Part shown: positions 43,229 through 45,909 of the stretch, piece by piece
Layout: every line of letters starts with the position of its first letter
How positions within the stretch are numbered: position 1 is the first letter of the stretch
Assembly: GCA_030835135.1 (NCBI GenBank)
Contig: JAUQWO010000076.1
Location: forward strand, 1 to 64,000
DNA: 64,000 nt
DNA from: Bacteroidota bacterium
GTDB taxonomy: Bacteria; Bacteroidota; Ignavibacteria; UBA10030; UBA6906
Direction of reading: 5' to 3'
The notes under the pieces: generated by a model
Databases searched by the model: none
What the model was told of the DNA's origin: nothing
What the model saw: only the letters and a program-made list of their open reading frames with translations
Position numbers and translations under genes: made by a program

Positions 43229-44125
43229 GTGCACATGCTGCGTCCATTGATCTGTCTCACCGTCGCCGTCTCGCTGGCCGGGCTCCCCGTCTGCGCGCAG
43301 CCCGCGCACACGGTTGCGGTGCGGGGCACGACGGTCGATGTCGATGTGGCAGGCAACGTCTTCGTCCTGGACCGTGAGCGGGGCACACTCACGCTGTACG
43401 ATCAGACGCTGAAGGAGGTCGCGAGTGTGGGCGGGCCGGGATGGGAAGGGGGCAGCTTCGACCAACCCGCGGGGATCTGGGCCAGGAATGGTCTTGATAT
43501 CTACGTGGCGGACTTCGGGAACCACCGGATCCAGCGCTTCGACCGGACCCTGACCTATGTCTCATCCCTTTCGTCGCGTTCGGCAGACGACAATGCCGTC
43601 ACGTTCGGGTATCCGACGGATGTCACGGTGTCACGGTTCGGGACGCTCTACATCTGCGATACGGAGAACAACCGGATCGTTACGGTGGATGCGTCGAACC
43701 GGCTGGAAGGGTCGTTCGGCGGGTTCGGAGGAGGAGCGGGAAAGCTGGACCATCCACTCCAGGTGGCGATGGGTCCCGGAGACCAGGTGTATGTCCTGGA
43801 CCCACCACGCATCCTGGTGTACGATCTCTTCGGGAACTTCCTCTCCTCACTTGCCGATGGGCTCGTGCGTGCGCCGGTGAGGATCGCGGGAGATGACCGG
43901 GGGATCGTGGTGGCGGACGGACAGGATCTCGTGTTCTTCGACGCGTCGCACAGGCCGGTGCTCCGTATGCCGGTCGCCGATGTGACCGGACATCCGTCAG
44001 CGGGAGTGCAGTCGCTCTGCTGTGCCGGAGGCAAGGTGTACGTACTCACGCCGGGAGCGCTGCACATCCTTCCGGACCCGCGCGGCAGGGATGGGTTGCT
44101 TGACAAAGAACCCGATAATCATTAG
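43229..44125 (+). CDS. Exported NHL-repeat beta-propeller protein
   Basis: A 298-residue protein with an N-terminal signal peptide (LRPLICLTVAVSLAGLPVCA). It then has repeated NHL-type blades: FDQPAGIWARNGLDIYVADFGNHRIQRFD, FGYPTDVTVSRFGTLYICDTENNRIVTVD, LDHPLQVAMGPGDQVYVLD and VRAPVRIAGDDRGIVVAD. Such propellers bind proteins or ligands outside the cytoplasm; no enzyme motif is seen. GTG at 43229 or ATG at 43235 are both possible. The last residues (DKEPDNH) are followed at 27 bp by ssb. Confidence 0.8.
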   Translation: MHMLRPLICLTVAVSLAGLPVCAQPAHTVAVRGTTVDVDVAGNVFVLDRERGTLTLYDQTLKEVASVGGPGWEGGSFDQPAGIWARNGLDIYVADFGNHRIQRFDRTLTYVSSLSSRSADDNAVTFGYPTDVTVSRFGTLYICDTENNRIVTVDASNRLEGSFGGFGGGAGKLDHPLQVAMGPGDQVYVLDPPRILVYDLFGNFLSSLADGLVRAPVRIAGDDRGIVVADGQDLVFFDASHRPVLRMPVADVTGHPSAGVQSLCCAGGKVYVLTPGALHILPDPRGRDGLLDKEPDNH

Positions 44126-44152
44126 CATGAGTCACTCAAGAAAGGGATCACG

Positions 44153-44581
44153 ATGGCCAAGAGCCTCAATAAGGTGATGCTGATCGGCAACCTGGGGAAG
44201 GACCCGGAGATCCGCTACACGGGTGCGGGACTGCCGGTCGCAACATTCTCGCTTGCGACGAACGAATCCTGGAAGGATCAGGAGGGGAATCCGCAGGAGC
44301 GGACAGAGTGGCACAACATCGTGGCCTGGTCCAAGCTGGCGGAGATCTGCCAGCAATACCTGAAGAAGGGGAAGAAGATCTATATCGAAGGCCGCATCCA
44401 GACCCGCAGCTACGATGACAAGAACACCGGAACGAAGAAGTACATGACGGAGATCGTGGCGGCGAACATGATCATGCTCGACGGTGGCGGCAGCCGCGGT
44501 GCGGGAGATGGTGCGGATGCGTTCCCCGTCTCCGATGGCGCTCCCCAGGCGGAGGCGAGCAAGGAAGACCTTCCGTTCTAA
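44153..44581 (+). CDS. ssb: Single-stranded DNA-binding protein
   Basis: A 142-residue SSB. The OB-fold has [68 protein letters not shown] and the C-terminal interaction tip EDLPF, which recruits repair and replication proteins. The Gly/Ala linker is short. AAAGGGA lies upstream of the ATG. Three DnaA boxes begin 6 bp after its stop codon. Confidence 0.96.
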
Positions 44582-44586
44582 AGAAG

Positions 44587-44619
44587 TTATCAACAGCGTT
44601 ATCCACATAGTTATCCACA
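44587..44619 (+). promoter_or_regulatory. Array of three DnaA boxes at 12-bp spacing
   Basis: TTATCAACA (44587-44595), TTATCCACA (44599-44607) and TTATCCACA (44611-44619) lie in one orientation, each 12 bp apart. The last two match the DnaA consensus exactly; the first has one change. A one-mismatch box in the opposite direction, TGTGGATCA, lies at 44744-44752. The 185-bp spacer also has an inverted repeat. This could be part of a replication origin or a DnaA-controlled site for ssb or carA. Confidence 0.8.
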
Positions 44620-44651
44620 GGAATTCGCTGTGTGACACCGACCGGCCCAGT

Positions 44652-44684
44652 GCTAATCGTTTATGTATCAATCGATTAGCATTG
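44652..44684. repeat. AT-rich inverted repeat beside the DnaA boxes
   Basis: TGCTAATCG and CGATTAGCA form a perfect 9-bp inverted repeat around an AT-rich 13-nt centre (TTTATGTATCAAT). Flanking ACCGAC/GTCGGT adds a partial outer stem. It could be an operator, a cruciform, or part of a duplex-unwinding region. Confidence 0.7.
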
Positions 44685-44766
44685 TGTCGGTCAGGCATGT
44701 CAGTACGGCAGAGACCTCATTCCGTCCGCATGTGCGCAGCATCTGTGGATCATTCAGGACAGGGCA

Positions 44767-45909
44767 TTGAAAGCAAAACTGGCTCTCGAAAACGGTACGA
44801 TATTCACAGGGGAATCCTTCGGGGCATCCGGTGAGATCTCGGGTGAAGTGGTGTTCAACACGAGCATGTCCGGCTATCAGGAGATCTACACTGATCCCTC
44901 CTATAGCGGACAGATCGTCACACTGACCTATCCGCTCATCGGCAACTATGGAGTGACTGACGAGGATATGGAATCGTCCGGACCCCGGGTAGCAGGCGTG
45001 ATCGTGAAGGAGTACACCGAGACCCACAGCAACTTCCGCTCGTCCTCTTCGCTTGGCGATTGGCTGACGCAGCACGGCATCACGGCGGTGCAGGGCATCG
45101 ACACCCGGATGCTGACACGCATGATCCGGACACAGGGCGCTTTGCGCGGGGTGCTCTCCACGATGGAGCTGGATGACACACGTCTGCTGGCGAAGGTCGC
45201 AGCGGTCCCTTCCATGAATGGACTCGACCTGGCGACGAAGGTGACGTGCGGCAGTGCCTACGATTGGAAGGGGACCGATACGACGCCCTTCGCTCTTGGC
45301 GTGCCGGGGATCGATCCCGGGCGCCGCTTCCGCGTCGTTGCATACGATTACGGGATCAAGTACAACATCCTCCGCCGGCTCACGGCCTTCGGCTGTTCGG
45401 TCACGGTCGTGCCCGCCGGTTTTCCCGCTGCCGATGTTCTGGCCATGAAACCCGACGGCGTGTTCCTCTCCAACGGTCCCGGCGATCCTGCGCCGGTCAC
45501 CGTGGCGATCCAGAATATCCGCGCGCTGCTCGGACGGGTACCCATCTTCGGCATCTGCCTCGGCCATCAGTTGTTGTCGATCGCTCTGGGGGCGAAGACC
45601 TACAAACTCAAGTTCGGGCACCGTGGGGGCAATCATCCGGTTAAGGATCTCCGGACAGGTGTCATCGAGATCACGTCGCAGAACCACGGGTTCGCCGTGG
45701 ACCCCGATTCGGTGGACCAGTCGGCGATCGAGATCACGCATATGAACCTGAATGACAACACGAATGAGGGGATCCGTCACCGCTCGTTGCCGGCGTTCTC
45801 CGTTCAGTATCACCCCGAAGCATCTCCGGGACCGCACGACAGCGACTATCTGTTCCGCGAGTTCATCGCCCTGATGGCGGGTGAACCCGTGCCTGTCCGC
45901 ACGGTCTAG
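44767..45909 (+). CDS. carA: Carbamoyl-phosphate synthase, glutamine-hydrolysing (small) subunit
   Basis: A 380-residue CarA. The N-terminal domain has [43 protein letters not shown]. The class I amidotransferase domain has [19 protein letters not shown], the nucleophile elbow GICLGHQLL with the catalytic Cys, and [12 protein letters not shown] with catalytic His/Glu. It supplies ammonia for arginine and pyrimidine synthesis. TTG start, preceded by AGGACAGGG. No carB lies next to it in this window. Confidence 0.95.

Follow-up and report, generated by a model that had tools for sequence, protein, structure and literature searches.

What might a phased group of binding sites (boxes) for the replication initiator DnaA do in front of carA, a gene for carbamoyl-phosphate synthesis? 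The question is raised by a 64,000-nucleotide stretch of a Bacteroidota genome (hereafter the window, meaning the whole stretch that was analysed), in which three same-facing DnaA boxes lie between ssb and carA. The window belongs to contig C46 (277,842 bp) of a 4.9-Mb draft genome in 88 contigs (G000), which named relatives place in Ignavibacteriota. An earlier reading of the letters alone (the sequence-only reading) had seen in this array either a replication origin unlinked from dnaA or a DnaA-regulated site for ssb and carA. Judging from the sequence and from its relatives, we consider it probable that DnaA binds the array and thereby controls transcription of the carA unit.

The array (44587-44619) begins 5 bp past the ssb stop codon (44581) and reads TTATCAACA-gcg-TTATCCACA-tag-TTATCCACA. 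The same-facing boxes, their 12-bp steps with 3-bp spacers, the perfect match of two of them and the near-match box in the opposite direction are all present as the sequence-only reading described them. If a double box is taken as at least two same-facing DnaA boxes 2-3 bp apart, the array has three such boxes in a row. The same reading had judged a chance occurrence very unlikely, and this is borne out. The phased pair TTATCNACA-N3-TTATCCACA occurs in the whole 4.9-Mb genome only at the carA array, and the reversed-pattern control is found nowhere. The triple scores 26/27, the next best position reaching 21/27 (440 kb of the host genome, two contigs, both strands). In the host genome, single boxes show no enrichment (TTATNCACA, 29 sites versus 27 for the reversed control), and the one-mismatch inverted box, taken by itself, is likewise at chance level. 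Thus, only the phasing is informative, because single boxes occur at chance frequency.

The sequence-only reading had held that absence of the array from relatives, together with a skew minimum and coverage peak elsewhere, would count against it. Instead, the array lies 5′ of carA, within about 290 bp, and is conserved with the gene in 10 genomes of six genera (G000 and G002 of g1; G004 of g3; G005 of g4; G007 of g6; G008, G015, G018 and G020 of g7; G010 of g9). The position of the carA start codon, a TTG, is also conserved among relatives. When each locus was resampled (first-order Markov, 2000 each), p was at most 0.0005 at each of the ten array loci, compared with 0.17-0.87 at array-less carA loci of the family. 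In an alignment anchored on the array, 20 of the 27 box columns reached at least 80% conservation, whereas in the spacers and flanks only 1 column of 58 did (Fisher p 1e-12). A degenerate-triple search in 21 family genomes returned matches lying nearly all 5′ of carA, and none for the reversed pattern. Triples found by this search in G004:C86 and G008:C150 carry 3 mismatches and were set aside as chance. The carA loci of the order's other families and 80 named ones taken from collections of genomes showed no phased array, except L052, from a g7 member of the family. Inverted boxes downstream of the array were located, relative to carA, at -19 in G005 and -129 in G002 (perfect), at -26 in G007, and at -36 and -48 in G010. 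The array is real and is kept by selection. As a separate observation, exact phased DnaA-box pairs also occur in other families of the class (L034-L046, e.g., G131, G154, G191).

The gene upstream of the array varies. In g1, g3, g6 and g9 the order is NHL gene-ssb-array-carA-methyltransferase. In g4 and g7 it is ssb-ggt-array-carA (G005, G015, G018, G020), G008 retaining only the 3′ part of ggt. Hence four genera have ssb as the upstream neighbour and two have ggt, and the array remains by carA. Since ggt parts ssb from the array in g4 and g7, an array belonging to ssb is ruled out: this half of the earlier proposal falls, whereas its carA half, conserved across genera and independent of the upstream gene, stands. 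The carA gene of g10, g11 and g12 follows a TonB receptor unit, and its linkage to ssb was not found. A cobalamin riboswitch precedes this unit in g10 and g11, and the g12 contig starts right at a terminator-like stretch preceding the receptor. Loss of the genes that once separated ssb from carA, with the array itself kept, would be a plausible history, the tree being too weak to give the order of events.

By analogy with better known systems, a mechanism can be proposed. In Escherichia coli, chromatin immunoprecipitation sequencing showed that DnaA in vivo prefers box pairs separated by 2 or 3 bp and loses much of its binding when a further bp is added (PMC11317965). Thermotoga maritima DnaA prefers 2 bp between same-facing boxes (PMC10316083). 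The compact E. coli DnaA regulon includes the nucleotide-synthesis genes nrdA and purH (PMC11317965; review PMC8203912). Their double boxes resemble the carA array in being same-facing, 3 bp apart and upstream of a nucleotide-synthesis gene; the array differs in having three boxes instead of two, a distant inverted box, another gene and another phylum, and its binding is only predicted. The host DnaA (PF08299, E 7.6e-31) has a canonical domain IV, including GGRDHSTVIHA, when aligned to PDB DnaA chains. Because of the E. coli box-pair geometry and this canonical domain, cooperative DnaA binding that controls the carA unit is the most likely reading. DnaA, probably ATP-bound, would fill the three adjacent boxes as a head-to-tail oligomer, as on the E. 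coli double boxes; same-facing box runs in the left and right DnaA-oligomerising regions of E. coli oriC also support oligomers of this kind (PMC10316083). DNA looping might join the array to the inverted box or boxes near the carA start, and carA expression would change upon binding. The supply of carbamoyl-phosphate for pyrimidines and arginine would thereby be tied to the level or nucleotide state of DnaA, that is, to the replication cycle.

Repression or a roadblock is slightly favoured over activation, because in three relatives a riboswitch or terminator-like stretch precedes the boxes, which sit in a transcribed leader or in first codons. In G006 (g5), a cobalamin riboswitch comes after ssb-ggt, and between it and the next gene stand two forward boxes, both perfect, and an inverted one; the contig ends before any carA that may follow. 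These boxes inside a riboswitch leader lean toward repression or a roadblock. In G009 (g8) and G013 (g12), weaker triples stand where the TonB receptor gene begins; as they overlap codons, they may partly be due to chance. In G013, the boxes come first in a closely packed TonB receptor-DUF5074-binding protein-carA cluster.

The boxes, their phasing, rarity and conservation and their link to carA are observed, whereas DnaA binding, cooperativity, looping and regulation at the array are inferred. Several points weigh against control of carA by DnaA. In g7 and g3, the inverted box is weak, lacking or found at another place. Just two good forward boxes are found in G010 and in G007. In G002, the whole unit sits 108 bp further from carA, a shift that would equally suit a site with no dependence on the gene. 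A promoter search located none for carA. Since carA lacks the array in g10 and g11, the control is dispensable or lineage-specific. Finally, the deep branches of the YicC tree were not resolved, which leaves unproven that the array-bearing genera are one clade and that the array arose only once.

Table 1. Coordinates of the features discussed (window positions unless a locus is given)
Feature	Position	Strand	Remarks
DnaA box 1 TTATCAACA	44587..44595	+	8/9 consensus match; aligned box in most relatives
DnaA box 2 TTATCCACA	44599..44607	+	9/9; kept in relatives
DnaA box 3 TTATCCACA	44611..44619	+	9/9; kept in relatives
Inverted DnaA box TGATCCACA	44744..44752	-	8/9 (one mismatch), 15 bp before carA
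Putative sigma-70-like promoter, TTGACA-17-TAGCAT, before ssb	44100..44128	+	Consensus match only
ssb, single-strand DNA-binding protein	44153..44581	+	PF00436, E 1.4e-40
carA, carbamoyl-phosphate synthase small chain	44767..45909	+	PF00988 and PF00117; orthologues
9-bp inverted repeat TGCTAATCG / CGATTAGCA	44651-44659 / 44673-44681		Hairpin core; the whole, longer hairpin falls within 44620-44720
Riboswitch-box region of G006	L216 4923-5313 (G006:C346)		
Weaker triples of G009 and G013	L166 and L165		After riboswitch or terminator-like stretch

The chief rival, which we hold to be unlikely, is that the array is a chromosomal locus for DnaA titration, inactivation or reactivation, in the manner of datA, DARS or the Bacillus DnaA-box clusters, that stands before carA by chance and acts on DnaA itself. 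The E. coli loci DARS1, DARS2 and datA are likewise small DnaA-box clusters outside oriC, with a core of three boxes in DARS (PMC4585315). A three-box core is present in the carA array too. The E. coli loci combine their box core with IHF sites, and in DARS2 also Fis sites, and alter the nucleotide bound to DnaA. A site of this kind would account for the preserved distance between forward and inverted boxes in G002 (135 versus 133 bp) while the distance to carA changed, and for neighbours that differ among relatives on both flanks. However, the array is found 5′ of carA, or of a carA-holding cluster, in nearly every case, and ssb-ggt loci without carA (G012, G013) have no array; unlike DARS and datA, it is bound to the 5′ side of one gene across genera. 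The clusters and DnaA target promoters of Bacillus subtilis (sda, yqeG-M, trmEF-rsmG-noc, and others) are also non-oriC boxes, and these act on transcription (PMC8203912). Their target genes are different, carA not being among the B. subtilis targets listed.

Much less probable is that the triple serves another DNA-binding protein with a target like the DnaA box. The first box position does vary among relatives (T, A, G or C), but the DnaA consensus is TTATCCACA, a word that also makes up the cluster upstream of dnaA in the host genome.

A main or accessory replication origin unlinked from dnaA is hardly credible. The array is oriC-like on the surface, since its same-facing boxes have an inverted box opposite them and a hairpin is present. 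However, dnaA, correctly placed outside the window by the sequence-only reading, was located on contig C72 (17.6-19.1 kb, minus strand) with three perfect boxes of its own upstream (19071, 19131 and 19279), and boxes also precede dnaA in the family members examined. The earlier reading had looked to cumulative guanine-cytosine (GC) skew for an answer, and the minimum falls at 17.5 kb on C72, beside dnaA. It is likewise close to dnaA in G018 (95 versus 95.9-97.4 kb) and G015 (10 versus 8.2-9.7 kb); in G007, the minimum is only local (52 versus 51-52.5 kb). The skew of C46 climbs steadily over 278 kb with no turn at the array (44.6 kb), and no AT-rich unwinding element adjoins the array, where GC content is about 0.60. 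Both marks of an oriC, the skew minimum and the unwinding element, are thus missing, and the boxes are few compared with E. coli oriC. The skew, along with the cluster of boxes that precedes dnaA, leads us to reject the unlinked origin. As to chance or a decaying repeat, single boxes do occur at chance frequency, but conservation across six genera and the resampling statistics already refute this explanation, whose probability is negligible.

If DnaA does control carA, is carA its only target of this kind? An exact double-box search of the host genome matched only the carA array and a second region, C41:5930-6002 (L048), between the divergent rqcH and yicC-gmk-rpoZ-coaBC-udg-dnaB. Two boxes lie there 2 bp apart, with an inverted box about 53 bp away. 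The form of this double-box region is kept in nearly all of the family (L257-L279; synteny checks), and its exact pattern is absent from 370 genomes searched outside the family. It lies roughly 20 kb from dnaA in the four genomes with both on one contig (G004, G007, G015 and G018). Tentatively, double boxes in this family might define a very small DnaA regulon made of carA and rqcH/yicC-gmk-rpoZ-coaBC-udg-dnaB, which would set pyrimidine and carbamoyl-phosphate supply, guanylate kinase and the replicative helicase along with initiation at oriC; we regard this extension as more doubtful than the control of carA itself.

Should the control of carA by DnaA be true, an entry gene to pyrimidines and arginine would join the processes under direct control of the replication initiator. 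A literature search returned no report of DnaA boxes at carA, and a text search no study of DnaA targets in Ignavibacteriota. As E. coli carries boxes of this geometry upstream of nrdA and purH, the nucleotide genes that have come under DnaA appear to differ between phyla. The array offers a short, strongly conserved sequence for testing the coupling of DnaA to metabolism.

Between the array and carA, the sequence-only reading had also noted a 9-bp AT-rich inverted repeat. The repeat exists; its arms are not especially AT-rich (5/9 positions A or T), whereas its loop is. The hairpin that it belongs to is very stable (RNA fold -47 kcal/mol, z -6.7). It has no second copy in the host genome, which rules out a repeat or mobile element, and the corresponding congener region folds at chance level (z 0.2). 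For these two reasons, the hairpin is a lineage-specific extra. An intrinsic terminator is ruled out, none having been found in the terminator search, and so is a conserved RNA element, since the congener and g7 regions fold like shuffles.

As for promoters, sigma-70-like matches numbered 1 versus 0.3 expected, the single match lying upstream of ssb, which from this consensus match may have a promoter of its own. Two further observations were made at other loci. A single in-frame TAG is reported for the carA-holding frame of G038 (L027, G038:C20:93656-94792). In G010:C62 (L240, 1501-1637), three boxes at 11-bp steps, together with two more, stand upstream of a 313-aa protein that has no Pfam match.
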